This document shows positions 7,083 through 25,764 of a stretch of DNA of 25,853 nt, in pieces. Source of the DNA: a virus. The notes beneath the pieces were generated by a model. That model saw only the letters and a list, made by a program, of their open reading frames with translations. It did not search any database and was not told the origin of the DNA. Both the position numbers and the translations under genes were made by a program. Numbering within the stretch: the stretch's first letter is position 1; every line of letters begins with the position of its first letter. Location: positions 1 through 25,853 of the IMG/VR virus record IMGVR_UViG_3300034694_000334; one strand, 5' to 3'.

Positions 7083-9178
7083 TATACATCCTCAAATATT
7101 GTAATAATACCCCAGTCATCGTCAAATTCAATTTGTTGGTAAGGTACTGATACAGCTGCCGGATTTCCGACTGTAACGGTTGGCGCAGAACTATAGCCTA
7201 GTCCAGCATTGGTAACGGTAATACCTGTTGCCTGACCGGTACCATCAATTGCAATAGTTGCGGTAGCGGTTTCAGTAACAACGGCGTCTATAGCAACGTT
7301 TGCAGTTATATAGAACTTCCCAGTGTTATTTATAGTAATATCAGTCACCGCTCCATCAGTAAGAACAGCAGTTGCAGTTGCTCGGTAATCTACAGCAGCA
7401 CCATCGGGGTTTGAAACCGTAACAGTTGGTGTAGTGTTAGCATAATTAGCGCCAGCGTTTGTTACAGTGATTGCAGTTACTTCGCCTTCAAGCACTGTAG
7501 CTGTTGCAGTAGCAGGATCTTTATCAAAATCATCTGTGAAGTGACTACCTGTTTGAGCCGAGGTTGGAACAGTATATGAACCATCAGCTGTTACCCCAGA
7601 AATCTGTGTAATAATTAAGTTATCTAACGCACCGATGAAACTTCTTTCAGATCCAGAACGTTGACCAATATTTACCGTTCCACCGCCACCTTGTAGGTAA
7701 CCTTGTGGAGCATTGCCACCCGCGATTGCGGTACCGTTTAATAACCATTTTGCATCTGAGCCGTAATGCTCAAGTCTAACGTGATTCCATGCGTTTTCGT
7801 TTAAAGTATGTCCAGTAGATCTTACCGGAACTGTGTTGAGCCAAGGACGATATACAAGCACCCCACCATCTTCTATTTCAATTCTCATTGTTTGACCAGG
7901 AATATGAAGAATATGATAATCAGCAGTGCCTGCACCTGAGAATTCTGGACGAATCCAAAACTCTATAGCAAACCCGTTACCCGCAGTATTGAACGCGTAA
8001 TCAGTAACATGGCTAAAGGTTGTATCGGCTATGTTATGATATAGAGCATCATCGCCGTAGTAGACGTACGCAGATTTGGCCGGTGGTTCGTCCACAGAGA
8101 CGGTAGCTGAACTGTAATATGTGCCGCTGTTGGTTATATCAATAGATCCAACGGTGTCTCCAGAGATCACGACAGAGCCTGTAGCGGTGATTATGTTGCT
8201 GTCTGGAGCGCTAATTGTAACGGCTGGAACTGTAGAATAAAAGCCACCAGCTTCTGTAATAGTGAAGTCTGTTATAGCAGTATTTGTTATTGTTGGAGTA
8301 ATTTGTGCGTTTAATCCTGATGGAGCACTAATTGTAACTGGTATTACATTGAGTGGATCATAGTTTTCACCGTCGTTTATAATAGTGATACCAGTGAGAG
8401 ATCCATTAGATACCTGAGCAGTTGCCACGGCAGCTATACCATCTTCGTTAAGTGGCAGACCACCTGCAGTCATGCCTGGGCGAATAGTAATACCTTCTTC
8501 AGCAATAGCATCTCCAGCAGTGGATGTAGCCATATCAATATCAACGAACTTAATAACTTTCTTAGTTTTCTCAGGACCAAAATAGTATCCCTTTAAAGTA
8601 AAAGTTAAAGTGTAAAGAATTGTTTGTCTTGTTTCGTAATCACCCTCGTAAAGATCTTCGGTCGTAACACTATTCAACACAATAGGAATATCAATAGGAT
8701 CTAAGTCTGGTACCATCGATGCGGTAACAGTCCAATCTGGTGTAAAGAACGGAATGATTTGTTCCATAATCTTTGTTGCATCTTCAGCATACTTTGTCAT
8801 AATATACAAAGAGAACTCAATATCATATGGAACTGAAGCATACATAAAGGGTCTAGATGAATCAGTTTCGGTTTTTTGACTCTTGCGCATCTTCTGTGTT
8901 GATCCAATTTTTCTCGCTGGATCATATGATAGACTTGTAATTTCAAAAGACATACGCGGCAAAGACATAGCAGGTCTTGTGCTATTCAATAAATCTGGAT
9001 CTTCATTTAATCTTGAAAGAACTTTTTGGAATGGCGCGTATGACAACGGCACAATCATATCCTGTATTACCGTTCCGGCATTGTCTTTTCTTTCAATTTT
9101 AAGTTGATTGAAAATAGTACCGAATAACGCAACATATCTTCTCGTTGTTTCGTTATAGAAATAATTAGCAATAGCCAT
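7082..9178 (-). CDS. gp15: Tail sheath terminator gp15 with a large repeat/LamG insertion
   Basis: gp15 caps the sheath and tube end and joins the tail to the neck. T4 gp15 has 272 residues; this one has 698. Residues 1 to about 217 are gp15-like (start MAIANYFYNETTRRYVALFG; FTLKGYYFGPEKTKKVIKF near 193-211), and the last about 20 residues (IEFDDDWGIITIFEDV) resemble a gp15 C-terminus. Between them lie about 450 extra residues: three copies of a roughly 33-residue beta repeat (257-368), a concanavalin/LamG-like domain (about 370-525), and three more repeats (562-675). The reading frame is continuous, with no sign of frameshift. The start shares one base with the gp14 stop. The insertion probably projects from the neck-tail joint; a glycan- or surface-binding role is inferred. 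Confidence 0.9.
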   Translation of the reverse strand: MAIANYFYNETTRRYVALFGTIFNQLKIERKDNAGTVIQDMIVPLSYAPFQKVLSRLNEDPDLLNSTRPAMSLPRMSFEITSLSYDPARKIGSTQKMRKSQKTETDSSRPFMYASVPYDIEFSLYIMTKYAEDATKIMEQIIPFFTPDWTVTASMVPDLDPIDIPIVLNSVTTEDLYEGDYETRQTILYTLTFTLKGYYFGPEKTKKVIKFVDIDMATSTAGDAIAEEGITIRPGMTAGGLPLNEDGIAAVATAQVSNGSLTGITIINDGENYDPLNVIPVTISAPSGLNAQITPTITNTAITDFTITEAGGFYSTVPAVTISAPDSNIITATGSVVISGDTVGSIDITNSGTYYSSATVSVDEPPAKSAYVYYGDDALYHNIADTTFSHVTDYAFNTAGNGFAIEFWIRPEFSGAGTADYHILHIPGQTMRIEIEDGGVLVYRPWLNTVPVRSTGHTLNENAWNHVRLEHYGSDAKWLLNGTAIAGGNAPQGYLQGGGGTVNIGQRSGSERSFIGALDNLIITQISGVTADGSYTVPTSAQTGSHFTDDFDKDPATATATVLEGEVTAITVTNAGANYANTTPTVTVSNPDGAAVDYRATATAVLTDGAVTDITINNTGKFYITANVAIDAVVTETATATIAIDGTGQATGITVTNAGLGYSSAPTVTVGNPAAVSVPYQQIEFDDDWGIITIFEDV
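7154..8410 (-). repeat. Six beta repeats flanking a LamG domain in gp15
   Basis: Protein-level repeats at gp15 residues 257-288, 297-327, 337-368, 562-595, 605-634 and 644-675. The shared pattern is a short lead strand, then ITxITVTNxGxxY, then xxPTVTVSxP. Three copies precede and three follow the LamG-like domain. Individual copies have diverged in DNA sequence, so this is not a recent expansion. Confidence 0.8.
7604..8071 (-). other. LamG/concanavalin-like domain within gp15
   Basis: gp15 residues about 370-525 have the layout of a LamG-type jelly roll: FAIEFWIRPEF (403-413), the WNHVRLEHYGSDAKWLLNG strand pair (464-482, typical of laminin-G domains) and IGALDNLIITQ (515-525). Such domains often bind glycans or are purely structural. 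No ligand can be read from the sequence. Confidence 0.75.
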
Positions 9179-9861
9179 TAGTTGTTATCCTGAATAGTAA
9201 TGTTTTCGCTGAATGGATCCATTTCACTAAAGTCTAAAATATCATCCGACAGTTGTTCGAACTCAAGGTTTTGCGCCATCACATCATTATTTGCGACGTC
9301 TTCAAGAGTAGTAACGAATTGGCTGGTAGAATTAATATCATCAAAATAATTGTCAATATCATCGCGACCAGTGTCGAATCTTTCGTTAGAATATTCCATC
9401 AATTCGCATTTAATATCGTATACTTGTAAAGAACCAGATTGGTAGAAAACACTTTCGTGTTCTACGTATGTAATCTTATACATCTTCTGATTCAAAGGAA
9501 GCCAGATAATATCATTTTCGCGTGGACGAACTTTTGTTTGTGTTTTCCTAGTAACATATTGTTCGAATGTTCTGATAGCAACAGTGAATGTAACTTGGTC
9601 TCTGATCTGTAAACCAAACTTAGATAGGAAGTCGCCTTCGCCTTCAAACCCGTCAACATTTTTCACGTACACTTCAAAAGAATACATCTCATCATACAGA
9701 GGTGTATCATCTTCGTTAAAGATAGCATCTACGTTATTGAACAACCCACTTATATAGGTTACGTCAAGACCATAGATCTGAATAGACTCAATTACGAGGT
9801 CATCAACTAGATTTTGCTCGTTAAAGTTATCGTAGTTACTGAAGTATACGTTACTAGCCAT
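9178..9861 (-). CDS. gp14: Neck protein, T4 gp14 family
   Basis: Component of the head-to-tail connector that closes the filled head and accepts the tail. 227 residues (T4 gp14: 256). The N-terminus (MASNVYFSNYDNFNEQNLVDDL), the IYGLDVTYI segment near residue 29, and RPRENDIIWLPLNQKMYKI near 112-130 are typical of T4-like gp14. The C-terminal third is acidic and Asp/Asn-rich. The start lies 3 nt after the gp13 stop, and the ribosome site is weak (GGGT), suggesting coupling to gp13 translation. The stop codon overlaps the gp15 start by one base. Confidence 0.93.
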   Translation of the reverse strand: MASNVYFSNYDNFNEQNLVDDLVIESIQIYGLDVTYISGLFNNVDAIFNEDDTPLYDEMYSFEVYVKNVDGFEGEGDFLSKFGLQIRDQVTFTVAIRTFEQYVTRKTQTKVRPRENDIIWLPLNQKMYKITYVEHESVFYQSGSLQVYDIKCELMEYSNERFDTGRDDIDNYFDDINSTSQFVTTLEDVANNDVMAQNLEFEQLSDDILDFSEMDPFSENITIQDNN

Positions 9862-9864
9862 GAT

Positions 9865-10608
9865 TTACCCGATAAAATTATATGTTAGAGGCTGCAAATT
9901 ACTAATGGCGTCTTCTTCCATCTTTTCTCTTTCGGCTCTCGCCTCCGCTAATATTTGCTCACCATTAAAAGAAACACCACCAACTAATTGCATATTTGTA
10001 AATTTAGTTAGGTTAAGACCCCACTGTTCGCGTACAAGAGCTGATGCATAATTCTGCAACCATCTGTCTGACCAAACATCTGCGTATTCATCCGGATCAA
10101 TAATGTCGTATGCTTCAACGATAATGTAAGTACCAACTGTCCAGCGGTCTTTAGTATTATCGATATGCAATCTGTTCACATGTTTGTTGTAACGGATAAT
10201 AGGTTTACCAACAAGCATTTCTTGCATGAACTCAATATGCTGCATAGACATAAAGTAGTTAGTCATGCTATAACTCGCCATATCTTGAACATTGTTTAAA
10301 ACGAACTGATATTGAACGTTAAACATACCGCCACCCATAGAGATTGACGTATCAAAATTAAAGATCTTAGATATACCTAATAATTTTTCTGGTAAAGGGA
10401 TCCATCCATTTACTTTATCTTGTTCTGTAATTATGTGCTTTAGATAAACTAACTGGCTACCATTATAATGATAGTCTCTCCAAAAAGAAACAGCTTCATC
10501 TACTCGGTCGTCGATTTGTTCTTCAGCAACGTTAATTTGGATAACTGGCGCGCCAATTTTCCTTAAAATATATTGTATGAATTCATCTCTTGACTGTGGT
10601 TGTGCCAT
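9865..10608 (-). CDS. gp13: Neck protein, T4 gp13 family
   Basis: Neck protein that binds the portal with gp14 after packaging. 247 residues, shorter than T4 gp13 (309) but usual for marine T4-like phages. The N-terminal segment (SRDEFIQYILRKIGAPVIQINV, read in two parts: helix 6-19 and strand 20-28) followed by EEQIDDRVDEAVSFWRDYH and a YLKH motif is characteristic of the family. An AAGGGG ribosome site precedes the ATG at 10608. It is the first gene of the continuous 13-14-15-16-17 block, in the same order as T4. Confidence 0.93.
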   Translation of the reverse strand: MAQPQSRDEFIQYILRKIGAPVIQINVAEEQIDDRVDEAVSFWRDYHYNGSQLVYLKHIITEQDKVNGWIPLPEKLLGISKIFNFDTSISMGGGMFNVQYQFVLNNVQDMASYSMTNYFMSMQHIEFMQEMLVGKPIIRYNKHVNRLHIDNTKDRWTVGTYIIVEAYDIIDPDEYADVWSDRWLQNYASALVREQWGLNLTKFTNMQLVGGVSFNGEQILAEARAEREKMEEDAISNLQPLTYNFIG

Positions 10609-12918: not shown

Positions 12919-13134
12919 TATCATTATATCCACGAGCTGGCCTGTCATTTCCCCAATAGGTTTGTTTATTTCCCCATTAGCCGAGTAAACAACATATTCA
13001 ATCTTTTCTACTCGTACTACACCATTACGTTCAACATGATTTACATCAGTGCGAATAACATTATCACCGACATAATTCATTGAGGTGTATTTACTTAATA
13101 CTACTGCATACCCTGCTGCTGCTGTTATATCCAT
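12916..13134 (-). CDS. Small hypothetical protein
   Basis: 72 residues if started at the ATG at 13134, which shares its first base with the stop codon of the upstream methyltransferase gene (TAATG). This fits coupled translation better than a start 27 nt further up, inside that gene. The product (MDITAAAGYAVVLSKYTSM, then two short beta segments VVRVEKIEYVVY) has no recognisable motif. It is co-directional between the methyltransferase and nucleotidyltransferase genes, and its stop overlaps the ribosome site of the latter. Function unknown; reality supported by spacing and frame only. Confidence 0.6.
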   Translation of the reverse strand: MDITAAAGYAVVLSKYTSMNYVGDNVIRTDVNHVERNGVVRVEKIEYVVYSANGEINKPIGEMTGQLVDIMI

Positions 13135-13150
13135 TATAGTTCCGCCATCA
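13131..13150 (-). repeat. Duplicated translation-initiation segment, copy 1
   Basis: A 20-mer covering the ribosome site and ATG of the 72-residue gene, nearly identical (one mismatch) to 12899-12918, which starts the next gene. Confidence 0.7.
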
Positions 13151-14384: not shown

Positions 14385-14391
14385 TTTATAA

Positions 14392-15438
14392 TCACCCGTT
14401 ATCCATTAAAAAATCTAAAAATACTTTCTGAGGCATTCTAAGAATAAACGAAGCGTTATCTTGCCAACCAAAAGAGATTAAAATATCACCATTATCTGGG
14501 TGTACAGTCATACCAGTTACAAACTCAATACCATAATCGGTATCCGTAACGTGATCATAATATGTACCCATAAAATGGAAATTACGAGAAGCGTGGATTA
14601 GATTCCAATCATTATCCCATATAATAACACGATGTGAATACTCACCATCTTTGCGACCAAATGGATCTCTTAGTAAATTTGTTTCATGAATGAAAGCCAT
14701 ACGCTGATTATCATTAATTCTAATAACCTGTGATCCGCCACGGAAATCTTTACCAAAAGGTTTACGCTCGCCTTCTTCAATAAACGCATCTTCTGTAGTT
14801 CCTGCTTCAATATCGAATTTAACAACTTGAGTAGGATTACACCATTTAACAAAGTGGTATGGCATATCAATAACTGGCATCCAGTTCTTTTCACAGAAAC
14901 TACCGTCACCATTTGGTGCAGGAATAGGATGTCTTGAGATCTCAGTCCATTGACCATCTACGAATTCAATATGACACAATTCCATGCGGCCTGTGCCTTT
15001 ACTATCATAGCAATCGCGACGAACACCACAAAGATAAAGTTTATCATCCCACTCAAATAAACGAGCGTCTTCCAAACCAATAAAGTTCCAAGTAGGTTTA
15101 CCAGTATCCAGAGCCATATCTACGCGTTGTGCAGACTTCAAATTCAAGTTACTATCTAACTCACACATAACATTGTGCGTAGTTAAAGTTACGTCATTTT
15201 CTGGATGAATATATACGAGAGGTCCCCACTGATGCGGAAACTTTTTACCCTCACTATGATAGAGGATATAGTTGATGTGACGAATGTTTAGGAGTATCTT
15301 ACCTTCGTGTGTGAAGATAGATGGATTCATAACTCCTGTTTCGTTTCCTAGAACCGATTTTGGTAATAGGACTGGTGATAGCGACCCACCGCGTTTTAAA
15401 GCCCAGGCCGCTAAGCCACCCATATGCAAATCATGCAT
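14392..15438 (-). CDS. GH130/GH43-like five-bladed beta-propeller protein
   Basis: 348 residues with the spaced motifs of beta-propeller glycoside phosphorylases and hydrolases: MNPS at 37-40, GLEDARLFEW at 121-130, EKNWMP at 183-188, GGSQVI at 234-239 and EFVTGM at 305-310. GH130 enzymes split mannosides by phosphorolysis. Phage and glycosyltransferase-linked relatives often keep the fold without proven activity. I cannot confirm the catalytic Asp and phosphate-binding residues, so activity is open. It is first in the module with the methyltransferase and the nucleotidyltransferase-cupin gene, and has its own perfect late promoter 36 nt upstream and a GGAG ribosome site. Together these genes suggest late-stage glycan handling. 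Confidence 0.78.
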   Translation of the reverse strand: MHDLHMGGLAAWALKRGGSLSPVLLPKSVLGNETGVMNPSIFTHEGKILLNIRHINYILYHSEGKKFPHQWGPLVYIHPENDVTLTTHNVMCELDSNLNLKSAQRVDMALDTGKPTWNFIGLEDARLFEWDDKLYLCGVRRDCYDSKGTGRMELCHIEFVDGQWTEISRHPIPAPNGDGSFCEKNWMPVIDMPYHFVKWCNPTQVVKFDIEAGTTEDAFIEEGERKPFGKDFRGGSQVIRINDNQRMAFIHETNLLRDPFGRKDGEYSHRVIIWDNDWNLIHASRNFHFMGTYYDHVTDTDYGIEFVTGMTVHPDNGDILISFGWQDNASFILRMPQKVFLDFLMDNG

Positions 15439-16291: not shown

Positions 16292-16852
16292 TTAGCCGCT
16301 GTGTAGATAAAGGTCTATTGGTATAGCTATTCGTAAGCTAGAATAGTAAGGATTTACGTGGTGATATGTAAAACTTGGGAAAATTAAATAATCACCGGTT
16401 TGAGGAGTATGTTTAAATCTTTCAAACATTGGTTCGAATTCACTATCGTATCCTCTGTTAGCGTTTGATCTAGGATCAGAAAATACGATGTCACCACCTG
16501 AATTTTGATCTTCGGCCATAACATAAAATACTGCAGATAAATGAGCCCCAGAATGATTGTGAATAGTCATACTGTAATCTTTGCCATGGCCAGTAATCCA
16601 GCCTTTCATTTCATGGTTATTCCAATCACTTATTTCTTTATTAATAGTTTCTTTTAAATAAGAATTAAAATGATCGTAAACCAATTCTTTAAATGCGTGC
16701 ATTACATCAGAATCGTCGTCAAATATATTGCAACCGTCTACTTCCGCATCTAAATCATGCAAGTCGTAATTTGTAAATATATGTTCAATCAGTCCGTCAA
16801 CTTCAAACTTGCCACTACCAAACATTGTTGGCCATTGTGGTGTCATTTTCAT
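16292..16852 (-). CDS. 2OG-Fe(II) oxygenase family protein (phage type)
   Basis: Predicted non-heme iron, 2-oxoglutarate-dependent oxygenase. I chose the ATG at 16852 (186 residues) because GAGGAG ends exactly 6 nt before it; the ATG at 16858 directly abuts that ribosome site. Motifs: HNHSGAHLSAVFYVM with the first iron-binding His at 98-100, GGDIVFSDPRSNANRG (119-134), the G-x-x-LIFPSFTYHHV strand with the distal His at 164/165, and Arg at 174 for 2-oxoglutarate. This is the double-stranded beta-helix pattern of the small phage-type oxygenases common in marine T4-like phages (TIGR02466-like). The DPRxNANRG block is shared with the gene at 22375-22872, so they are paralogues. The substrate is unknown. 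A perfect late promoter lies 26 nt upstream. Confidence 0.88.
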   Translation of the reverse strand: MKMTPQWPTMFGSGKFEVDGLIEHIFTNYDLHDLDAEVDGCNIFDDDSDVMHAFKELVYDHFNSYLKETINKEISDWNNHEMKGWITGHGKDYSMTIHNHSGAHLSAVFYVMAEDQNSGGDIVFSDPRSNANRGYDSEFEPMFERFKHTPQTGDYLIFPSFTYHHVNPYYSSLRIAIPIDLYLHSG

Positions 16853-16878
16853 ATTCATCTCCTCATACTATATAAGGT

Positions 16879-16959: not shown

Positions 16960-17427
16960 ATGAATTTTCAACAGTTTGAAGAATTTCTGTTATCAGAAGA
17001 TTGCTATATGAATCATGATGTATCTATTATTGATACAGATGGTCTTCAGCACTATATTAGTGAAACGGAATTCTTTACTTATCAAACGAAAATGACTAAA
17101 TATTTGGTACAAGAAAAGTATACTGTTAAAATTGAACAGATGGAAAATTATTGGAAATTTAATGATCGCACAATGCATTTATTTTATAATCCAAAGAACG
17201 GACCAACATTCAGTGAACATACAGATCCAATCGATGTTATTATCGAATGCAAAGACGGTATTAAACATATAGAAGTAGAAGGCTGGCAACATGATCTGCT
17301 CCCGAATGAACGGCTGTATATTCCAGCAGATACATTTCACAAGGCATTAAACTATGAAAAGGCATTGGTGATATCACATGGCATTAGCGACACAGAAACA
17401 CTTGAGCGTTTACGTAAAAACGACTGA
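16960..17427 (+). CDS. Cupin/JmjC-like protein opening the operon
   Basis: 155 residues. The C-terminal half follows the cupin/JmjC-like order: FSEHTDPIDVIIECKDGIK at 84-102 with a possible HxD iron-binding pair (H87, D89), a short W-containing strand (EGWQ), then LPNERLYIPADTFHKAL (114-130) with a possible third ligand H127 and a last strand ALVISHGI. Such proteins may be 2OG-dependent hydroxylases or merely metal-binding barrels; with so short a domain I cannot decide. The N-terminal half is helical and unfamiliar. It has an AAGGAT ribosome site 6 nt upstream of the ATG. The last 50 nt overlap the first radical SAM gene, so the two are probably coupled. Confidence 0.7.
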   Translation: MNFQQFEEFLLSEDCYMNHDVSIIDTDGLQHYISETEFFTYQTKMTKYLVQEKYTVKIEQMENYWKFNDRTMHLFYNPKNGPTFSEHTDPIDVIIECKDGIKHIEVEGWQHDLLPNERLYIPADTFHKALNYEKALVISHGISDTETLERLRKND

Positions 17428-18385
17428 AACATGTAATTTAGATTGCTCTCATTGTTTCACCTCAGGCTCTAAAGGTGCAAAAATCTATTTTGATCCGGTT
17501 CGGACTGCGAATTGGCTTAACCAGCTAGATAGAGACACAATCTTTTATGAATTTCACGGTGGCGAGCCTATGCTTGCTTCTGTAGAATCGATGATGAAGT
17601 TTGTTGAACTTACTAAAGGCGAAGGTGTAGAATACGGCACAACTACAAACCTTGTATATAAGTTAACAGATGAAAAGCTAAAGTTCTTTGATGAGGTTCT
17701 TAATAAAAGAATTGGTACATCATGGGATCCTACAATTAGATTTACTAATGAAAAGCAAAGACAGCTATGGGAAGACAATGTTAAATTCCTCGTTGCTCGT
17801 GGTTACACAATTAAAGTCTTTGTTAGTTTAAGTAAAGACGTAGTTAATATGGAACCAAGAGATATTTGTTCTTACATGGAAGATCTCGGTATTCAAGAAA
17901 TTGATTTCGAGCGTATTACTATGGACGGTAACGCTAAAGGTAAAATGTGGCCATCTAACATTGAGTTAGACGAATGGTTCGTAAGGTACCACTCTCAGAT
18001 TGAATCTAGAGATGGAATACAACATGTAATCATGGAAAACATATATGCTAAGTTTGAGGATAATAATCCATCGCGAGGCACATGGTGCAGAGACTGTGAA
18101 CAAAAACTATTAACTATTAACGCTAATGGATCTATAGCAGGTTGCCCTAACACGGCGCCAAGCAAGGCGTATGGTCATATCGATACACCAGCAAGTGAAG
18201 TCATGAAATCAGACGGACGCTGTAGTATTATCATAAAAGAACTAAACAGAAATCCAGCATGTTATGAATGTCCAGTGTTTGATGTGTGTGGTTCTGATTG
18301 TCACCAATTAGAATGGGAAGGCGACATATGCCCGTCTCCGAAGACTCTAATGATGCAATTAAAGAATGAATATAAATATAAATAA
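17378..18385 (+). CDS. Radical SAM/SPASM protein 1
   Basis: 335 residues. The CxxxCxxC motif CNLDCSHC (C19, C23, C26) binds the 4Fe-4S cluster that cleaves SAM, and GGEP at 61-64 is the SAM-binding motif. The C-terminal part has a SPASM-type layout for auxiliary clusters: C237, C240, C256 (GSIAGC), C282, then C295-x2-C298-x5-C304-x3-C308 and C318. SPASM enzymes mostly modify peptides or proteins (AlbA, anSME, PqqE, HxsB types). It immediately precedes the CHxS-tail gene, so that protein is the natural substrate candidate. The start at 17378 overlaps the cupin-like gene by 50 nt; only a late TTG would shorten it. It shares TSxDPxxRFxN (about 114-124) with radical SAM protein 2. Confidence 0.92.
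   Translation: MALATQKHLSVYVKTTETCNLDCSHCFTSGSKGAKIYFDPVRTANWLNQLDRDTIFYEFHGGEPMLASVESMMKFVELTKGEGVEYGTTTNLVYKLTDEKLKFFDEVLNKRIGTSWDPTIRFTNEKQRQLWEDNVKFLVARGYTIKVFVSLSKDVVNMEPRDICSYMEDLGIQEIDFERITMDGNAKGKMWPSNIELDEWFVRYHSQIESRDGIQHVIMENIYAKFEDNNPSRGTWCRDCEQKLLTINANGSIAGCPNTAPSKAYGHIDTPASEVMKSDGRCSIIIKELNRNPACYECPVFDVCGSDCHQLEWEGDICPSPKTLMMQLKNEYKYK
18371..18384 (+). promoter_or_regulatory. Two overlapping late promoter boxes before the CHxS gene
   Basis: TATAAATA at 18371-18378 and again at 18377-18384, within the last codons (Tyr-Lys-Tyr-Lys-stop) of the radical SAM gene and 29 nt before the ATG at 18414. The spacing agrees with other late promoters here. The coding context means chance cannot be excluded. 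Confidence 0.6.
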
Positions 18386-18413: not shown

Positions 18414-18998
18414 ATGGTATCATTAACAAATAACGTAAGCAGATCAAACGTCCGACAAAGATGGGAAGATTATGTTGCGGACGCTGCTCGTGCAGGTATT
18501 TCGTGGGGATACAACAGAAAGCCGTTTTCCCAAGCACCCAATAGCTGGTTTGGTGGTAATTACAACTCACCCCCAGCGAGAAGTTCTTATGCTAGTGATA
18601 ATACAATTGGTAGTTCTGGTGGATTGATTACTGCGTCTACACTTCGCAACGGTTTAGTCGGTGCTACTACTAACTGGACTCACTTACGAAATATGAATGC
18701 ACGAAGATATTATAACTATCAAGGCACAAATCAACTTCAATATAACTCAACAGCAAAAGCATATCAAACTACAGGTGTTAGAGCAGCCATTGCCGCTCCG
18801 GGTATTCCAACTAATGGCCCAAACGCAGGTAATCTTATTACAAAAGGTTCAGACTCAAGTAATACTGGTCTTGAAGAATACTTCGCCAGATTACGCAGTG
18901 CGTATTATACTCGCCGTAATCAAGCCGTGGGTCGGTATGCGTATGTATGTCATTACAGTTGCCATTCTAGCTGCCATGGATCGAGAGGACGTAGATAA
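18414..18998 (+). CDS. Candidate modified-peptide precursor with CHxS tail
   Basis: 194 residues, no family recognised. The N-terminal 150 residues are rich in Asn, Ser, Gly, Tyr and Ala (for example WGYNRKPFSQAPNSWFGG, 31-48), with no signal peptide. Residues 153-172 form a basic helix (GLEEYFARLRSAYYTRRNQA). The end is C179-HYS-C183-HSS-C187-HGS, then RGRR: three Cys-His-x-Ser tetrads at exact 4-residue spacing. The only cysteines in the protein are these three. The tail recalls His-Xaa-Ser repeat peptides, which are linked with paired radical SAM maturases, but the body is different. It follows a SPASM gene after the operon's only gap (28 nt), with a GGAG site and tandem late boxes. It may be a RiPP-like precursor, a modified virion protein or a metal-binding protein. 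The stop overlaps the next start (TAATG). Confidence 0.8.
   Translation: MVSLTNNVSRSNVRQRWEDYVADAARAGISWGYNRKPFSQAPNSWFGGNYNSPPARSSYASDNTIGSSGGLITASTLRNGLVGATTNWTHLRNMNARRYYNYQGTNQLQYNSTAKAYQTTGVRAAIAAPGIPTNGPNAGNLITKGSDSSNTGLEEYFARLRSAYYTRRNQAVGRYAYVCHYSCHSSCHGSRGRR
18948..18983 (+). repeat. Three CHxS tetrad repeats
   Basis: Codons 179-190 spell CHYS CHSS CHGS, followed by RGRR and the stop codon. Each unit is 12 nt. Cys, His and Ser are invariant and only the third residue changes, as expected for a selected motif. Confidence 0.85.
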
Positions 18999-19747
18999 TG
19001 ATAAAAAATACCGTGGCTCCTATTCCTATTGAGTTGCTTAAGGAATATTTTAGTGATGATACTATTGTTTTCAATATTGATTACGCCGAAAGTATTTTAA
19101 AAGGTGATAAGCTTATAACATATCTGAGTAACTTAGATGTGCCGTGCACCTTAACTGGCTGGGAAAAAGTATCAACTGAAGATAAGTTTTCTTTTATTAA
19201 AGATTACATGAATGCCAAGTTAGTTATTAAGAACTATGAATTAGAAGTATGTGTTCTAAAGATTTTATACGAACTGTCTTACTTAGAATTCTGGGCTGAA
19301 TACCCAGAAACTGAAAGCATTTTAACATATGAAGAGACTTGTAATTTCTGCGAAGCTAACCAAGATATGATTGAGCAATGGTTAACTATCGTGGCAAGTT
19401 GTTCTATATATGCATTAACGACCGTTGGCGAAGATAGTGATTTAACTGAGCTAGTACTAGAAGAATTCGAAACAATAGACGATTATGACTACTGTGGTGT
19501 AAACTTCGTAATGTTATTTAGACACGAATTAACACAAGAATTATTAAGCGCTGATCGCCCCGTATACTATTTCGATAAACAGTTTAACGAGCCAATGTTT
19601 AAAGGTCAAGACCTATTTACATATTGGGACCATAATAACAACACCATGGCTTGCATTACGCAGGGTATTTCATCCGGAGAAATTACCCACGACGAATTCA
19701 CTGCTAATATAGAAAAAGGATTGGACGATGTTTCTGCTATTCGATAG
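18998..19747 (+). CDS. Uncharacterised acidic protein next to the CHxS gene
   Basis: 249 residues, not recognised. The ATG shares one base with the stop of the CHxS gene, so translation is probably coupled. The protein is strongly acidic and mostly helical, with eight cysteines including a CNFC pair at 115-118, an aromatic helix (LYELSYLEFWAEYPE, 90-104), and a C-terminal YYFDKQFNEPMF...YWDHNN region at 190-215. There is no CxxxCxxC, no HxD and no membrane segment. Position directly after a candidate substrate fits a recognition or carrier protein for maturation, but that is inference. Relatedness to HxsD-like partner proteins was considered; I see no convincing match. Confidence 0.78.
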   Translation: MIKNTVAPIPIELLKEYFSDDTIVFNIDYAESILKGDKLITYLSNLDVPCTLTGWEKVSTEDKFSFIKDYMNAKLVIKNYELEVCVLKILYELSYLEFWAEYPETESILTYEETCNFCEANQDMIEQWLTIVASCSIYALTTVGEDSDLTELVLEEFETIDDYDYCGVNFVMLFRHELTQELLSADRPVYYFDKQFNEPMFKGQDLFTYWDHNNNTMACITQGISSGEITHDEFTANIEKGLDDVSAIR

Positions 19748-20885
19748 AGTTTATGTAAAGTACGACTTCATGATAGACAACAATACTGATAACTTAATTT
19801 GTACTCCTAACATTCCAAATCTTATCTGGGATGAATTAGAAGCCATCCATAGTGGTATGGGTGAACAGATGCATAGGGTAGATAGTTATGAAGATCTTGT
19901 TGGTATCGCTGAAGTTGGTGCCTTAGATGATAACGATGAGCAAATTGTTATTCCTTATCTTAATGACTTAGCGTTCTTTGATGCTCTATTAACAAAAGGC
20001 AAAGTAAACATTCACGTTGATACAACTGCGTATGATAAGATCTTTTCTAAGTTTTTAAAAATCTTTTTTCCAAGTATGTCGAGAGATGTTGCATGGAAAA
20101 CATATAATATCTTTAGAACAAATAGCCAACTGCTGAATACTACTAGCTTTGTATGGGGCGGAAATGGCGAGCAAACTCAAATTGATAATGCTGCCGCGTG
20201 GATACCTAGAACAAAAACAGAATTTCTTTCGGTTTATGATACAGTATCAAGAGATTTAGAAGATGATGCATATACTACTTTTATAGCCTCTGCAAAGCAA
20301 AAAATTGGTATTGAGTTTATGATTGCTAATAGACTAGCTGGCGATGAATCTTATGATGTTTTCCTTGGTGAAAAGATGTATAAGCTTATGGCTTCAAGAG
20401 TTAACGACGAAGGTACGTTCTTAAAATCTACATTGTTTAACAATATGTTCAGACCTTGGGTACAAACTGTGCTAGGTGTTACTGTAAATGCAAATGACGA
20501 CTTATTAGATCTTAAAGATACTAATGATATAACACGTTGGGTGTTTGACGATACTGAGCGGTATTTCACCGCAGATTACCAAACAAATCATCCAAATGTT
20601 CGATTTAGTGCTATTCGTACTGCAATGATAACAGCAGTTACGGGATCTACTTTAGAGGTAGAAGAAGCGCTCACAAACGAATCAATGGATTTTGTCCACG
20701 ATAATGTTTCAGTTCAAAACTTTACTTCTGCTAATATCACAACTATATTAAACACTGATAAAACTTACTTAGGGCCATCTGTATTTGAAATTGAAAATAG
20801 ACTAAAAGTTAATGCTCTGTTTATAGGTTATATGTATAAGTTATCCGTTGACGCAGATGCTGAGTTGAGTATGTTTAGCCTATGA
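19728..20885 (+). CDS. Uncharacterised protein of the radical SAM operon
   Basis: 385 residues, not recognised. It starts MFLLFDRVYVKYDFMIDN, with an AAGGA ribosome site 8 nt before the ATG, and overlaps the preceding gene by 20 nt. It is acidic, mixed alpha/beta to mainly helical, with one cysteine and no metal or cofactor motif that I can name. Blocks that may be family signatures are FFPSMSRDVAWKTYNIFRTN (about 113-132), FVWGGNGEQ and AAAWIPRTKTEF (about 155-166). It ends in ATGA, overlapping the next oxygenase. Size, lack of repeats and position suggest a scaffold or partner protein of the pathway, but nothing in the sequence proves this. Confidence 0.78.
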   Translation: MFLLFDRVYVKYDFMIDNNTDNLICTPNIPNLIWDELEAIHSGMGEQMHRVDSYEDLVGIAEVGALDDNDEQIVIPYLNDLAFFDALLTKGKVNIHVDTTAYDKIFSKFLKIFFPSMSRDVAWKTYNIFRTNSQLLNTTSFVWGGNGEQTQIDNAAAWIPRTKTEFLSVYDTVSRDLEDDAYTTFIASAKQKIGIEFMIANRLAGDESYDVFLGEKMYKLMASRVNDEGTFLKSTLFNNMFRPWVQTVLGVTVNANDDLLDLKDTNDITRWVFDDTERYFTADYQTNHPNVRFSAIRTAMITAVTGSTLEVEEALTNESMDFVHDNVSVQNFTSANITTILNTDKTYLGPSVFEIENRLKVNALFIGYMYKLSVDADAELSMFSL

Positions 20886-21424
20886 TACAAAACTGCTATG
20901 AATCTTCGATATGGGTTAAACAATTTGACAATAGCAACGAGTTCAATCAAGATGTTTTAAATGTCACTAAAGCAATTTCGGCTACAACTCCTGAGCCTGT
21001 AGCCGATCATAACGTTGATCTATGGGTGTCTGATAATATGCAGACTATTAGATCATATTTTATGGAAGGCTTTAAAGACTTGTGCAGTACATATAATGAA
21101 AAATCAGACTTTGATATAGATTCTATGAACATGGTTAATCCCATGAATCACGGTGACTTTAAGTCATGCCACAACCACGATGTTATCGACGCGTTCGGTG
21201 TTTATTATGTTAATGAATCAGACGAAGGCGGTAAGCTAAGATTATACGATCCAAGATTCCTTAGCAAGAAATCATTTTCACAAGGTCCTTATATTGAGAT
21301 AAAGCCACGAACTGGTCTTATGGTAATTGCACCATATTATGTTTGGCACGAGGTTACTCCATATCTAGGTAATGAAACCCGATACAGTTTAATATGTAAC
21401 ATGGTATTTAATAATGTCACTTGA
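20882..21424 (+). CDS. 2OG-Fe(II) oxygenase family protein A
   Basis: 180 residues, the same phage-type oxygenase group as the genes at 16292-16852 and 22375-22872. The metal-binding motif lies in CHNHDVIDAFGVYYV (first His at 97, second at 99). It is followed by EGGKLRLYDPRF (115-126), the IKPRTGLMVIAPYYVWHEV strand with distal His 156, and R167 in the last strand (TRYSLICN) for 2-oxoglutarate. The DPR motif is present without the NANRG extension seen in its relatives. Predicted activity: hydroxylation or related oxidation of an unknown substrate, possibly a peptide given the neighbours. The start overlaps the upstream stop (ATGA); the end overlaps radical SAM protein 2 by 11 nt. Confidence 0.88.
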   Translation: MIQNCYESSIWVKQFDNSNEFNQDVLNVTKAISATTPEPVADHNVDLWVSDNMQTIRSYFMEGFKDLCSTYNEKSDFDIDSMNMVNPMNHGDFKSCHNHDVIDAFGVYYVNESDEGGKLRLYDPRFLSKKSFSQGPYIEIKPRTGLMVIAPYYVWHEVTPYLGNETRYSLICNMVFNNVT

Positions 21425-22406
21425 TATAATAACAAAGACGGGTAAACGAGCAAACACTGGTGAGATCATTGTTACCCTCTTCGAATTCTGTAACCTAAGC
21501 TGCAAGTTTTGCAATCAAGATCATGATAGTCTAGAAGGTGTTAAGACTATAGCTGAAAAGGTCGACGTTGTAAAAAAGGTTATAATGCAAACACCGAGAG
21601 AAAAATACAGTATCCACTTTATGGGTGGCGAAGTTTTTGCTGACGCGTTGCCTTTACACGTATATACCGATTATCAATATGTATGTCACGAATTAAACTC
21701 ATGGGCAACCGAGCAAGATATCGAACTAGAGATATGCTTTACTAGTAATATGGTATTTGATAACATGGATGATTTAGATGAGTTTCTTCATATCTCTAAT
21801 CCTAAAATATTAACTAGCTTTGACCCTGCTGCACGCTTTAATAATGATACGTTTGAGATTTTTAAGCGCAATGTAAAGAAGTACAAAGACCATATTAAGT
21901 CTGTTAATATAATCATGACTAAGCCGACAATAAATAAGTTTATGAAAGGCGACGTTGAATTTTTTGATTATCTTTATGATAATTTCGACGTTTACTTTGA
22001 TTACTATACACCTGAAAAGAACATGGCGATGTTTATTCCTAATGATGTAATGCTACGCGACTTTATGATTTATATGCTCGAACATTATCCTAAGGCACTA
22101 CCCTTCGCGGATTACACGAGTAAGATTAAGAAACAAATGAGCTGTATGGATACGATGACTATTATGCCAGATAATTCGTTTGGCAATTGCACTATCCTAC
22201 TAAAAGATTTTAAAAATGTAACGACAACTAAGCAAGACATGGAACAAGAATGGTTTAAGCAATATAATTGTTTAACCTGTCCACACTTTCAATACTGTTC
22301 TATGGGTTGCTTTTTGTCTAATCACATGCAGAGTTTTAGAACTCAAGAAACGTGTTGGTTAAGTGAGGTTTATGATGTGGTCCACCCCGATTCAAATATT
22401 CAATGA
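21414..22406 (+). CDS. Radical SAM/SPASM protein 2
   Basis: 330 residues. The cluster motif CNLSCKFC (C26, C30, C33) is followed by the SAM motif GGEV at 71-74. The C-terminal cysteine set is C244, C259 (SFGNC), C286-x2-C289-x5-C295-x3-C299 and C314: a SPASM-like auxiliary cluster region. The core segment TSFDPAARFNN (134-144) matches TSWDPTIRFTN in radical SAM protein 1, so these two are paralogues with probably related substrates. The N-terminal 15 residues (MSLDIITKTGKRANT) have no ribosome site of note, and the gene overlaps its neighbours by 11 nt and 32 nt. Peptide or protein modification is the likely class of reaction; the bond formed cannot be predicted. Confidence 0.92.
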   Translation: MSLDIITKTGKRANTGEIIVTLFEFCNLSCKFCNQDHDSLEGVKTIAEKVDVVKKVIMQTPREKYSIHFMGGEVFADALPLHVYTDYQYVCHELNSWATEQDIELEICFTSNMVFDNMDDLDEFLHISNPKILTSFDPAARFNNDTFEIFKRNVKKYKDHIKSVNIIMTKPTINKFMKGDVEFFDYLYDNFDVYFDYYTPEKNMAMFIPNDVMLRDFMIYMLEHYPKALPFADYTSKIKKQMSCMDTMTIMPDNSFGNCTILLKDFKNVTTTKQDMEQEWFKQYNCLTCPHFQYCSMGCFLSNHMQSFRTQETCWLSEVYDVVHPDSNIQ

Positions 22407-22872
22407 TGGTTATAAAAAGCCAGTAGAAAGATATAGAGATTTTCTAAAAGAACATTTTAATCTTAATTTAGAAAATTTTAATTATGAAATAAGAGAGTGG
22501 GAAACAACCCCAGGCTCTGGCTATTGGTTAGCACCGCATAATCATGGGCATTCGCATTTTACAGCAATTCATTACAGTTATGTTTCCGGAGAAGGCGGTG
22601 AATTAATCCTGCATGACCCAAGAGTGAACGCTAATAGAGGATTCCCACAAGAATTTGGATCTGAGTTTGCGCCATACATAATTAAACCAGAAACCGGAAT
22701 GACTGCTATATTTCCATCTTATATCTACCATACAGTCGCGCCTTTTAGAGGCATGATAAGAGAAGGAAAGGTAAGTGAAATTCAATTAAATAGCCCACGT
22801 ACTATTGACAATTTAATAGAAGAAGGTTATATTAATATGGATAATGCGCATTTAGGAGCTACCCCAATATGA
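22375..22872 (+). CDS. 2OG-Fe(II) oxygenase family protein B
   Basis: 165 residues from the ATG at 22375, chosen because GAGG lies 6 nt upstream; a GTG at 22363 and an ATG at 22372 are alternatives. Motifs: PHNHGHSHFTAIHYSYV with HNH at 55-57, GGELILHDPRVNANRGF (74-90), IKPETGMTAIFPSYIYHTV with distal His 119. The position where relatives have Arg before the last strand reads GKVSEIQL, with Lys132, so 2-oxoglutarate binding may differ or be lost. The DPRxNANRG block ties it closely to the minus-strand gene at 16292-16852. It overlaps radical SAM protein 2 by 32 nt and ends in ATGA. Confidence 0.86.
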   Translation: MWSTPIQIFNDGYKKPVERYRDFLKEHFNLNLENFNYEIREWETTPGSGYWLAPHNHGHSHFTAIHYSYVSGEGGELILHDPRVNANRGFPQEFGSEFAPYIIKPETGMTAIFPSYIYHTVAPFRGMIREGKVSEIQLNSPRTIDNLIEEGYINMDNAHLGATPI

Positions 22873-23507
22873 ATATTAATAAATTCTATACAGACGGATA
22901 TGACGAATGGCAAATGCCACCACACTTATCAGCTATGGTTTGGGGACAGCTACTATGTGAGAATTGGATTGATCATCCCGTATATAAAGAAATTCCAGAC
23001 TGGAGTATTAATAAAGGCGGTGAAGCCCAAAACCAAGATCAAAAATATCTTAGAGGTAAAGAGCAAGAGATTAACGAACAAAGCTTATCTATCGTTCCGT
23101 CAGTATATAAAACAGTAATAGAAGAATTGCTCAAAGAAGATTACTATTCAGAATGGTTTGAGACTGTATGTGGTTATCAACAAAAGATTAAATTCATCGA
23201 TGTTTGGAATGGATCTGACGATCTTAAATGGCATTGGGACGGTGTAGAAGACCACGATATGGGATTTCTAATATACTTTACAGAACAATATCAATGGAAT
23301 GAAGAATGGAAATCATATCTTCAAATCGGCGAAAGAGAGTGGCCTAATGATAAAGAGATCAATATTAAACACACAGCATATCCTAGCAATGGTAAGATTA
23401 TCTTGCTAAATAACATGAACCCGAGATTCGTGCATTCTGTGGCAAAACTGACAAACGCTAATGTTAATAGATATACTATTAACGCAGGGATTTCTTTATG
23501 GAACTAA
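22869..23507 (+). CDS. 2OG-Fe(II) oxygenase family protein C
   Basis: 212 residues, from a second oxygenase group, different from A and B. Its facial triad is complete: H122-W-D124 in LKWHWDGVEDHD, distal H189 in NPRFVHSVAKL, and R201 in RYTINAGI for 2-oxoglutarate. The strand PSNGKIILLNN (172-182) leads to the distal His, as in prolyl-4-hydroxylase-like enzymes. The N-terminal part (MPPHLSAMVWGQLLCENW, 16-33) is shared in outline with protein E (VDPSFSAMLFAQLMSEEF), so C and E are paralogues. It has a GGAG ribosome site. It overlaps B by 4 nt and radical SAM protein 3 by 10 nt. Confidence 0.85.
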   Translation: MNINKFYTDGYDEWQMPPHLSAMVWGQLLCENWIDHPVYKEIPDWSINKGGEAQNQDQKYLRGKEQEINEQSLSIVPSVYKTVIEELLKEDYYSEWFETVCGYQQKIKFIDVWNGSDDLKWHWDGVEDHDMGFLIYFTEQYQWNEEWKSYLQIGEREWPNDKEINIKHTAYPSNGKIILLNNMNPRFVHSVAKLTNANVNRYTINAGISLWN

Positions 23508-24499
23508 TTATTAAACCAACCGAGAAATGCAATTTTAAATGCACATTCTGTTCAAGCACATCAATTGCAGATGATGCTACAGATGAACTAGGTTTAGAAC
23601 ATATTTACACGTTTCTTAAAAGATTTCCTGATACGAATACTATCATTGTAAACGGCGGTGATCCTTTAATGATGAAGCCGTCTTATTACACAAAGCTGCT
23701 TGATCATCTTGACGAACACGACTATCCTACTACAGTAGCCTTTACAACAAATCTATGGCCATTTTATATGAAGCCAGATAAGTGGATTGATATCTTCTTG
23801 CATCCTCGTATAGGCATTACAACGAGTTTTCATTATGGCGAATCAAGACTAAAAGGTGATTATTCTGTATTTACTGAAGAAGACTTCTGGGCAGCATCAG
23901 ACAAAATGCTAGAACTTGTTGGGTATCGGCCAGGATTCATATCAGTTATAGATGAACACAACGCAGACAGAGCACTTGATAATGTACGCCTCGCAAAAAA
24001 GATGGGTGTTGAATGTAAACTGAATTACACAATGGCGTCTGGTATTGCCGGTCGTCCTTATCAATTATCAAAAATGTATAGTATCTATTTAGATGTATAT
24101 GAGGCTGGTTTAACTGAGTGGGAATTCAATACTAAACAAATGGTTGTGAGACTTCGTAATGAAGCTTTGATGTGTCCTCAGAATAGAGCTTGTGATAGTA
24201 CTATTAGAGCATTGCAACCAAGCGGAGACTATTATAGTTGTGGAGCGATGGGTGATGATAGAGAATACGCTATTGATTTTGAACGAGAGATGGCTGGCGA
24301 ATTCTTTACCCCTCTACAGGAAGATCCTGATATCCAAACAATGCGGACTGACGGTGAATGTTATTCATGCCCAATGTTTCAAATTTGTAACGGATGCAAG
24401 AAAACAGTAAAAGACACTAAACGTCATAACATGGTTGAGACCCACTGCACTTTGATGAAACAATTAGCACCGAGGATTGTAGATGCAAATAACGGATAA
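23498..24499 (+). CDS. Radical SAM/SPASM protein 3
   Basis: 333 residues. The CNFKCTFC cluster motif sits right at the N-terminus (C11, C15, C18), with GGDP at 53-56 as SAM motif. C-terminal cysteines: C226, C232, C248 (DYYSC), C288-x2-C291-x5-C297-x2-C300 and C317. The x2 rather than x3 spacing in the last pair sets it apart from radical SAM proteins 1 and 2, and the TSxDPxxRF segment is replaced by TTSFHYGESRL (108-118), so it probably handles another substrate or makes another bond. An AGGGAT ribosome site lies inside the preceding oxygenase gene. It is followed by oxygenase D with a 17-nt overlap. Confidence 0.92.
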   Translation: MELIIKPTEKCNFKCTFCSSTSIADDATDELGLEHIYTFLKRFPDTNTIIVNGGDPLMMKPSYYTKLLDHLDEHDYPTTVAFTTNLWPFYMKPDKWIDIFLHPRIGITTSFHYGESRLKGDYSVFTEEDFWAASDKMLELVGYRPGFISVIDEHNADRALDNVRLAKKMGVECKLNYTMASGIAGRPYQLSKMYSIYLDVYEAGLTEWEFNTKQMVVRLRNEALMCPQNRACDSTIRALQPSGDYYSCGAMGDDREYAIDFEREMAGEFFTPLQEDPDIQTMRTDGECYSCPMFQICNGCKKTVKDTKRHNMVETHCTLMKQLAPRIVDANNG

Positions 24500-25055
24500 C
24501 GCGCTATCACCTATTGAATTTAAAAAAATACTAAATTACTTTACGTCAGAAGCACCAGATTGGAAATTTGTTACTAATGTAACCCACGGTTCTGTTACAG
24601 AACATGGGCGTGATAAGTGGGGATTCGCGTGCAGCATATATGATTGTGGTAATGGAATAGGCCGCAACTCAACAGAAAAGATAATAGATAGAACTGCTTT
24701 AAAAATAATTGAACCGATAATTATCGATAAAAATAAATTACTCAGAGTTCGCGTTGGTATGATAATAAATGTAGGTCCTGATGAACCACACAATCCTCAT
24801 ATAGATCAACATGGAATAGAGCATTTGACTCAAATATATTACTTAACTGCAAGTGATGCACTAACTAATGTATTTGAAGAATATGGTCTTGATGAAAAAT
24901 ACAAAACGTACAAACCTGAAGATTTTACTATTAAAATGCAGTCTAAACCTGAGCCTAACAGAATGCTTGTATTTGACGGCTTTCATTGGCATAGCTCATC
25001 GCACGTTTACGGGCCAGAAGTAAGAATATCGGTGAATATTAATTATGCTAAGTAA
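24483..25055 (+). CDS. 2OG-Fe(II) oxygenase family protein D
   Basis: 190 residues, a third oxygenase group in this operon. The triad is readable: H106-I-D108 in NPHIDQHG, a distal His in FDGFHWHSSSHVYGP (H170 is the likely ligand, H174 the alternative), and R181 in VRISVNINY for 2-oxoglutarate. The FDGxxxHxSxxxxxxxRxSxN ending is typical of phage and bacterial prolyl-hydroxylase-like enzymes. The N-terminal half is more variable (residues 1-95, with C50 and C55). It has a GAGG ribosome site 7 nt before the ATG. It overlaps radical SAM protein 3 and oxygenase E, so the rSAM-oxygenase alternation is translationally linked. Confidence 0.85.
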   Translation: MQITDNALSPIEFKKILNYFTSEAPDWKFVTNVTHGSVTEHGRDKWGFACSIYDCGNGIGRNSTEKIIDRTALKIIEPIIIDKNKLLRVRVGMIINVGPDEPHNPHIDQHGIEHLTQIYYLTASDALTNVFEEYGLDEKYKTYKPEDFTIKMQSKPEPNRMLVFDGFHWHSSSHVYGPEVRISVNINYAK

Positions 25056-25764
25056 TAGTCCAAACTTCAATAACTTATATCTTAAAGGCGCAGACATAGT
25101 TGACGTTGACCCATCGTTCTCTGCAATGCTGTTTGCTCAGTTAATGTCGGAGGAATTTTCTACAGAAAGTAGTTATGGCGCTTCTATAACTAACCCTATA
25201 TGGGATAGAGAATATAATGAAAGAGAAGAGCCCATTTATATTGAAGGTAAGAAGCCGTATGCAGAATTCTTCAAAGAGGTTATTAAATCTCCGTACTTTG
25301 ACTATTGGAGAAACGTTTACGGAGAGTTTGACGAGATACATGTCAATGTTAACAAAGTAATGGCTGGTGGCGAGATGCCTTGGCACTTCGATGGATATGA
25401 TGGAACATTTCTACAAATACTTTGCTATCCTAACATGGATGATTTTGATACTGATGATGGTGGACATTTGCTAGTAGGCAGACCTGATACGTTATATCGC
25501 GAAGGTGATCCTATGCCGCACTGGGTACCAGAAAAAAGCTTAGATGATATTCTAACAAGCAACGTAGAAGTAACACAGAGGTTTGTTCCTAATAGAAACC
25601 AGATAGTTGTTCTTAATAATAACGATCCATCGTTTGTGCATAGAGTAACAAAGCTTAGTGCTGAGAAAACAAGATATACTATAATTGCAACACTAGGATT
25701 TAGTTCTTTGTGGAAGACAAATAAATTGAAGTCTGGGTTCTATAAGGATATACAGTTACTATGA
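25045..25764 (+). CDS. 2OG-Fe(II) oxygenase family protein E
   Basis: 239 residues. Triad: H114-F-D116 in PWHFDGYDG, distal H199 in DPSFVHRVTKL, R210 in TRYTIIAT. GGHLLVGR (139-146) and NQIVVLNNN (185-193) are the strands flanking the active site. It is a longer paralogue of protein C: both share the FSAMxxxQL segment near the N-terminus, the WHxDG motif and the NPxFVH or DPSFVH ending. The start overlaps D by 11 nt; its ribosome site is weak. The stop overlaps the start of the fourth radical SAM gene (ATGA). All catalytic residues appear present; the substrate is unknown. Confidence 0.86.
   Translation: MLSNSPNFNNLYLKGADIVDVDPSFSAMLFAQLMSEEFSTESSYGASITNPIWDREYNEREEPIYIEGKKPYAEFFKEVIKSPYFDYWRNVYGEFDEIHVNVNKVMAGGEMPWHFDGYDGTFLQILCYPNMDDFDTDDGGHLLVGRPDTLYREGDPMPHWVPEKSLDDILTSNVEVTQRFVPNRNQIVVLNNNDPSFVHRVTKLSAEKTRYTIIATLGFSSLWKTNKLKSGFYKDIQLL

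Follow-up and report, generated by a model that had tools for sequence, protein, structure and literature searches.

Why should a phage keep, directly behind a gene for a radical S-adenosylmethionine (SAM) enzyme, a gene whose protein ends in three Cys-His-x-Ser units and a short arginine-rich terminus? The question is raised by IMG/VR record IMGVR_UViG_3300034694_000334, a viral record of 25,853 bases from a T4-like phage, the whole of which is referred to here as the window. The gene in question (18414..18998, plus strand) encodes a protein of 194 residues, hereafter the tailed protein, and the radical SAM/SPASM gene upstream of it (17378..18385, plus strand) is called r1. The answer that we consider likely is that the tailed protein is a tail-fibre or host-recognition protein with a disordered Cys-His tail, which is modified by r1 with the help of oxygenases of the 2-oxoglutarate (2OG) type. 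The conservation of the tail is beyond chance, its coupling to radical SAM genes is very strong, and the genetic case for the tailed protein as the substrate of r1 is strong.

Conservation of the Cys-His tail

The translation of 18414-18998 terminates in YVCHYSCHSSCHGSRGRR, and its only three cysteines all lie within the C-terminal tail CHYSCHSSCHGSRGRR (18948..18995, plus strand), the proposed site of modification. An earlier reading of the sequence, referred to below as the initial annotation, had described a three-fold CHxS tail with an RGRR end and no cysteine elsewhere in the protein, and the translation bears out both statements. In a model made with AlphaFold2 (AF2), the body is predicted with confidence (predicted local distance difference test, pLDDT, 84.7; predicted template modelling score, pTM, 0.80), whereas the tail is of low confidence (pLDDT ~53 over residues 181-194), as would be expected of a folded body followed by a disordered end.

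The tail is kept in six related loci that share 71-99% identity, and a first form of a DNA pattern written for it matched 30 viral contig stretches, of which a few are junk. A second form matched at least 119 viral stretches, and a scan of 11.3 million cellular-genome contigs with the tail pattern returned 10. Among the matches listed, gathered through DNA patterns and relatives, 142 of 144 distinct triple-unit proteins end in exactly RGRR and a stop, the two exceptions being L023, which is junk, and L031, a fusion to a Hint domain; L016 and L021 were also junk matches and were excluded by an S/T filter. The patterns fix CHxS, or CHxS plus RGR, and the free evidence in this count is thus the last arginine and the stop only, while synonymous codons differ at each fixed position of the tail. 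Because patterns impose what they find, a tail-blind search was added, in which bodies were aligned with the tail removed. It gave 80 loci, five of them cut by contig ends, and the tail is present in all 75 complete proteins. The initial annotation had named tail-less homologues beside the same genes as an observation that would speak against it, and none occurs among these 75 body-anchored matches.

In the 65 distinct proteins of the tail-blind set, the three cysteines, the three histidines, the first serine and the arginines at positions -4, -2 and -1 are fixed. In units two and three the fourth position admits S, N or, rarely, A, and the glycine of RGRR may be G, S or A, so that the remark that only the third residue of each tetrad varies holds for the window but not for its relatives. 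The majority residue reaches on average 90% in the columns of the tail compared with 61% in those of the body, and 10 of 16 tail columns are invariant as opposed to 4 of 171 in the body. Conservation of the tail beyond chance follows from the RGRR-stop end, the varied synonymous codons and the presence of the tail throughout the tail-blind set. Since alanine replaces serine in a few proteins, the alignment suggests that the cysteines and histidines, rather than the replaceable serines, are the working residues.

Searches of the phage collection by tblastn with P0001 or with one protein of the tandem class described below gave no match, and neither did a search with the 21-residue tail, although the tail is present in phage FLC6 of that same collection, so that absence is not implied by this last result. 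The Hint fusion in L031 (1-1239, minus strand) is a separate curiosity: a fourth Cys-His unit runs straight into a Hint/intein-like domain (Hom_end_hint, E 2e-15) in place of RGRR, and a second Hint-like start lies ahead of the contig end.

Coupling of the tail to radical SAM genes

The tailed gene starts 28 nucleotides past the end of r1, whose protein carries a CX3CX2C motif and scores 27.3 for SPASM (TIGR04085; curated cut-off 27) and 23.7 for PF04055 (cut-off 29.5); the claim that the tailed gene directly follows a SPASM radical SAM gene is thus confirmed. This arrangement recurs in the tail-blind set, where a radical SAM gene ends at most 200 nucleotides upstream of the tailed gene in 72 of 75 loci; the exceptions are L248, where the upstream region is cut, L304, where the match is partial, and L284, where more than 2 kb separate the radical SAM gene from the tailed gene. 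Tailed genes of the class found in the window, designated type A, are usually single genes of ~140-310 residues directly 3' of r1. For the 91 non-redundant genes of this type (frames of at least 145 residues, redundancy judged by the last 120 residues, denominators restricted to loci with sufficient flank), r1 is adjacent in 69 of 76, a cupin gene lies upstream in 62 of 70, and a gene of family phrog_20767 follows in 70 of 77. In 41 of 45 there is also a 2OG oxygenase, as judged by iterated profiles made in this analysis, which may be broad.

The same association appears when r1 is taken as the starting point. In the best 80 loci of an r1-anchored search, which include near-identical phages and hence are not all independent, a complete gene other than a radical SAM gene stands next to r1 in 22, and it ends in the tail or a variant of it in every case (22/22). 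The variant ends include CHYSCHYDCHTSRGRR, found in L159 and bearing an Asp in its second unit, and CHYSCFTSSCHFSRGRR, shared by L160 and L161. In all 56 other loci (two more are cut), the neighbour of r1 is a radical SAM-like open reading frame (ORF), and in seven of these the tail occurs elsewhere in the locus. For the remaining 49 records, the tail was found elsewhere in 13, including 9 of the 11 records of at least 40 kb, and a reversed control pattern was found in none (0/49). The end CHYSCFTSSCHFSRGRR, in which one histidine has become phenylalanine and one residue has been inserted while an r1 gene still adjoins, offers a natural test of the residues that r1 needs.

Conversely, 37 tail loci had no match to the r1-type profile. 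Whole records were examined for 34 of them, three cellular-genome contigs being excluded, and PF04055 matched at E <=0.01 in 33 and above its cut-off in 28. The initial annotation had also named the CHxS tail in the absence of radical SAM neighbours as a finding that would tell against it; with a radical SAM gene upstream in 72/75 and 69/76 of the genes and a PF04055 match in 33/34 of the records examined for loci with no r1-type match, this is not the pattern observed.

A second class of tailed genes, type B, consists mostly of a tandem pair of 124-140 residues each. With L018 ORFs as queries for the genes downstream, a divergent, radical SAM-like ORF that contains a CX3CX2C motif was found directly after the pair in 18 of the 23 loci with 1.2 kb of downstream sequence, and within 2 kb in all 23. 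The assignment of this ORF as a putative radical SAM enzyme rests mainly on the cysteine motif. Types A and B have ~55 C-terminal columns in common (profile comparison E 1.3e-19, partly owing to the tail itself), and the AF2 models of both describe a helix, a beta-hairpin, a helix and a low-confidence tail (pTM 0.80 and 0.61, respectively); the tandem-class model had no match below 0.001 among predicted viral structures. Two observations on this class deserve mention in their own right. Loci L074 and L084 belong to one 151-kb contig (G021), which carries both classes, a lone tailed gene as well as a tandem pair, together with eight radical SAM matches. The ORF at L018:5361-6629, and its counterparts at the same place in other tandem loci, belong to a CX3CX2C family, phrog_31457, with GC...C..CF and IGPTDF segments, and paralogues often stand in a row.

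It might be asked whether the tail needs an enzyme at all. An unmodified metal-binding tip of three Cys-His pairs would have fixed cysteines and histidines and a second and third serine that give way to asparagine or, rarely, alanine, as expected of ligands; the tail is also disordered in the model, and other phage tail tips are loaded with metal. In that case, however, the radical SAM enzymes would act on something else, which leaves unexplained the gene directly upstream in 72/75 loci, the 22/22 tailed genes beside r1 in the best 80 loci, and the adjacent radical SAM-like gene that the tandem class has of its own. An unmodified tip is therefore regarded as unlikely.

Setting of the tailed protein among structural genes

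Where the tailed protein acts is suggested by its neighbours. The first gene of the tandem class starts -1 to 12 nucleotides after a tail-fibre-type ORF in 28 of 28 testable loci (of 30); these upstream ORFs, of up to 2,830 residues, resemble the L018 tail-fibre gene at their ends, and the upstream gene of L018 and L184 matches phrog_19602, 'tail fiber protein'. In the window, the minus strand encodes the portal, the tail tube and sheath, two neck proteins and both subunits of the terminase, and the compact cassette to which the tailed gene belongs starts at 16,960 on the plus strand and runs to the record's end, with radical SAM enzymes among 2OG-Fe(II) oxygenases. The neck genes, for head closure Hc2 (9178..9861, minus strand) and head-tail adaptor Ad2 (9865..10608, minus strand), are only ~6 kb away, and the cassette can thus be placed at the structural region. 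A comparable position has been described in pelagimyophages, where the host recognition cluster between VrlC and the neck gene gp14 acquires radical SAM cassettes, according to the sections of that report considered here (PMC7029224). What the window contains of such a region is its neck side. From the structural-gene context and the pelagimyophage cluster, we infer display on the particle, and a place for the tailed protein in the virion is probable. Also in this part of the window, the minus-strand frame at 12129-12902 looks by eye like a nucleotidyltransferase-cupin fusion, near genes of unassigned role at 13134-15438.

The search with r1 returned seven records that represent six cultured jumbo phages, namely Agrobacterium phage Atu_ph07 (two records), Sinorhizobium phage Phosso, Burkholderia phages FLC6, FLC8 and SURPRISE13, and Pseudomonas phage pPa_SNUABM_DT01. 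In all five of the cultured phages compared (one record each), the gene order is cupin-like gene, r1, tailed protein, and the tail ends include CHNSRSRR and CHSARGRR. The tailed protein of FLC6 is also encoded, in identical form, by FLC8, which was not among the five. The tailed protein of Atu_ph07 is gp170. Among predicted viral structures, the body of the window protein matched a 296-residue protein of Atu_ph07, gp170 judging by its length, and a few uncharacterised phage proteins. The virion proteome of Atu_ph07 contains a cluster of particle proteins given in the main text as 'CDS 170-215' (PMC6102473), and the start of this cluster at CDS 170 suggests, short of proof, that gp170 was detected in virions. 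A side result of the structure comparison concerns three proteins of Myoviridae sp. ctijX18 in BFVD (A0A8S5USJ7, A0A8S5USJ8 and A0A8S5USV2, 504-660 residues), the predicted fold of which resembles the tailed body; the comparison covered their fold, with the ends unseen, and tail-less relatives are possible there.

A body that is predicted to fold, together with tandem-class genes that directly follow tail-fibre-type genes, makes 'peptide precursor', the picture drawn in the initial annotation, probably the wrong one. The idea that the tail is modified by the operon gains from the tight coupling of tail and radical SAM genes, and the alternative then offered, a virion protein with modified residues, fits the folded body and the tandem-class position better. 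The related possibility that the tail is the core of a ribosomally synthesised and post-translationally modified peptide (RiPP), cut from the body and released as a toxin or signal acting on the host or on competitors, draws on a layout that is usual for RiPPs, that is, a leader-like body and a C-terminal Cys-rich core beside a SPASM enzyme. Nonetheless, the body is a conserved and confidently predicted domain, neither a protease nor a transporter could be recognised in the cassette genes scanned in the window, and the tandem class follows tail-fibre-type genes, all of which make a released peptide quite improbable.

The enzymes of the cassette and a proposed mechanism

The proteins of the r1 family carry the CX3CX2C motif and eight further cysteines in their C-terminal part, all of them invariant across the 23 proteins compared. 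The PapB model is matched by 22 of these 23 and the sulfatase maturase model by 19, both at E <=1e-8. Two of the 23 match the CXXX-repeat model TIGR04115. The r1 protein of the window lies far below the respective cut-offs for PapB (35.1 vs 340), TIGR04115 (20.2 vs 350) and the anaerobic sulfatase maturase (41 vs 349.45). Among known systems, there is a likeness to the ranthipeptides of PapB and PapA. PapB forms thioethers on Cys-X3-Asp/Glu motifs of PapA, as stated in the part of that report considered here (PMC9413430). The tails described here differ in that they almost never contain Asp or Glu (no Glu and a single Asp, at an x position, in the 65 distinct tails) and in that the target is a folded phage protein, whereas PapA is a short peptide. 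The CXXX-repeat family shares, going by the name of its model, a cysteine every four residues in the target, but the tail has a fixed histidine after each cysteine, and the setting is a phage.

With regard to chemistry, r1 might also be thought of as an enzyme of the sulfatase-maturase type that converts the cysteines to formylglycine and so provides the phage with aldehyde groups. Eight solved sequences matched r1, and only anaerobic sulfatase maturases align with nearly all of it (E ~1e-7); the last unit, read as C-H-x-S-R, also loosely resembles the sulfatase target motif, Cys-x-Pro/Ala-x-Arg. The third residue of that unit, however, is G, S or T in 137 of 142 proteins, Ala in three and Pro in none, and the maturase Asp after a conserved Cys, which has a catalytic role, is Pro in nearly all r1 proteins. 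Together with the score far below the equivalog cut-off, this renders the formylglycine route very improbable. A phage-borne member of the bacterial HxsABCD system, with its C-terminal HxS triplets and several radical SAM enzymes, is hardly tenable. An HxS does lie inside each unit, and r1 and r3 (the third radical SAM enzyme, 23498..24499, plus strand, PF04055 over cut-off) match HxsB and HxsC weakly, but these scores are far below cut-off (HxsB, 39.8 vs 370; HxsC, 29.7 vs 267.9), HxsA and HxsD gave no match at E 0.1 among the ten window proteins scanned, the tailed protein included, and the repeat unit here, CHx[SNA], has four residues with a replaceable second and third serine and occurs in a phage. 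Membership of the His-Xaa-Ser system is ruled out by the model scores, and the kinship that the initial annotation had suggested is not supported.

The other enzymes that may act on the tail begin with the gene upstream of r1, a cupin/JmjC_2-like oxygenase (16960..17427, plus strand). Its H-x-D...K...H residues (H87-x-D89...K102...H127 in the window) are fixed in all of the 110-111 aligned sequences, and the HxD...H metal triad is present; JmjC_2 scores above the cut-off in the three cultured phages scanned and just below it in the window (21.7 vs 22). Cupin relatives such as MINA53 and NO66 are known for histidine hydroxylation. A match of the cupin to MINA53 in the PDB (E 0.0028) was weak, was set aside and is not used here.

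Downstream of the tailed gene, the cassette continues on the plus strand with the conserved protein phrog_20767 (18998..19747, E 3.2e-47), the next gene in most cassettes, and a protein without Pfam or PHROG match that has relatives in other loci (19728..20885). These are followed by a 2OG-Fe(II) oxygenase (20882..21424, PF13759 over cut-off), the second radical SAM enzyme, r2 (21414..22406, PF04055 over cut-off), two more 2OG-Fe(II) oxygenases (22363..22872, PF13759 over cut-off; 22869..23507, PF13661 27.4 vs cut-off 27), r3, and two 2OG-Fe(II) oxygenase-like proteins below cut-off (24483..25055 and 25045..25764). A divergently oriented 2OG-Fe(II) oxygenase (16292..16858, minus strand; phrog_81, E 6.1e-28) is a neighbour whose membership of the cassette is uncertain. 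In FLC6, the region L146:18316-19529 (gp77, gp78) between radical SAM genes is annotated 'dihydrofolate reductase', whereas the window has 2OG oxygenases at that place; the annotation may be wrong.

Taken as a mechanism, the favoured account would run as follows. The gene product would be a tail-fibre or host-recognition protein with a folded body and a flexible tail of three Cys-His-x-Ser units that closes with a basic R-x-R-R end, and before assembly r1 would recognise the tail and modify it at the cysteines. That r1 acts on the tail is highly probable in view of the linkage, the full complement of radical SAM and SPASM cysteines and the resemblance to peptide maturases. Thioether formation is put first because the fixed cysteines are regularly spaced and PapB carries out this reaction on Cys-X3-Asp/Glu; by this analogy it is a tentative choice, and the acceptor must differ here from the Asp/Glu used by PapB. 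Hydroxylation of the tail, plausibly at the histidines, would fall to the cupin and probably to several of the 2OG oxygenases as well, a suggestion that is again drawn by analogy and is somewhat more doubtful. The modified tail would then be exposed on the virion, where its simplest role would be that of a metal-binding or reactive tip for adsorption.

Several observations weigh against this account. The r1 gene is not adjacent in 7 of 76 type A genes, four of which have it within ~1 kb, and the cupin is missing from 8 of 70 type A cassettes. No tail occurs anywhere in 36 of the 49 r1 records mentioned above, including 2 of the 11 of at least 40 kb, and one of the 34 tail records has no PF04055 match while some others have one only below the cut-off; in both cases the records are linear and may be fragments. 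In the tandem class, the r1-type enzyme lies ~5 to 11 kb from the pair, and the radical SAM-like ORFs are very divergent (two of them, from L018, have PF04055 E values of 0.034 and 0.0029 and stay under the cut-off). The fold of the body has no counterpart in the PDB below E 1 by Foldseek, and the best VIA-align hit has a Z of 2.0. With regard to the virion, gp170 is not named as detected in the main text on Atu_ph07 (PMC6102473), its presence being read from the boundary of the cluster, and the window yielded no VrlC, which marks the other border of the host recognition cluster. A measured mass shift or chemistry for the tail was not found in the papers considered here, and the proposed part in adsorption is guessed from gene position.

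Clusters of radical SAM genes in jumbo and T4-like phages have been reported repeatedly, and in the parts of these reports considered here the enzymes are listed and neither a substrate nor a Cys-His tail is named. Radical SAM and 2OG oxygenase genes of phages thus appear there without a substrate, as for FLC6 and RSF1 (PMC8066314), for S13 (PMC11898562) and for RP12/RP31, and the eight radical SAM genes among the structural genes of 332-Vera were called highly unusual by the authors (PMC12390700). FLC6 and SURPRISE13 hold the cassette described here, and RSF1, S13, 332-Vera and the pelagimyophages probably hold it as well. The T4-like marine genome TARA_ERS488813_N000010 is reported to carry 12 radical SAM genes and an iron-sulfur carrier gene (PMC5332604), which might serve cassettes like that of the window. 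No description of the tail was found in the open-access literature, a scope that leaves most subscription papers and all preprints outside, and although a SPASM-modified protein is a familiar type, this setting and motif were found nowhere described.

A bolder version of the proposal is that these phages possess a class of modification found almost only in viruses, in which radical SAM enzymes and oxygenases make a three-unit Cys-His warhead on the tip of the tail fibre, a metallophore mimic or a reactive anchor that captures receptors. This is speculative and perhaps doubtful, but if true, it would give phages, marine ones included, a reason to carry the radical SAM, 2OG oxygenase and iron-sulfur assembly genes that are usually put down as accessory metabolism. 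What has been found is a short, nearly invariant tail tied to one enzyme subfamily in a T4-like contig, in more than 100 other viral stretches and in six cultured jumbo phages. If the tail is indeed modified, virions would carry residues made by radical SAM enzymes, of which we know no other case, and there would be new chemistry at the contact between phage and host. The puzzling radical SAM enzymes of viruses would thereby gain a target, a viral way of arming the particle would come into view, and both host range and the presence of iron-sulfur genes in phages might become easier to approach.
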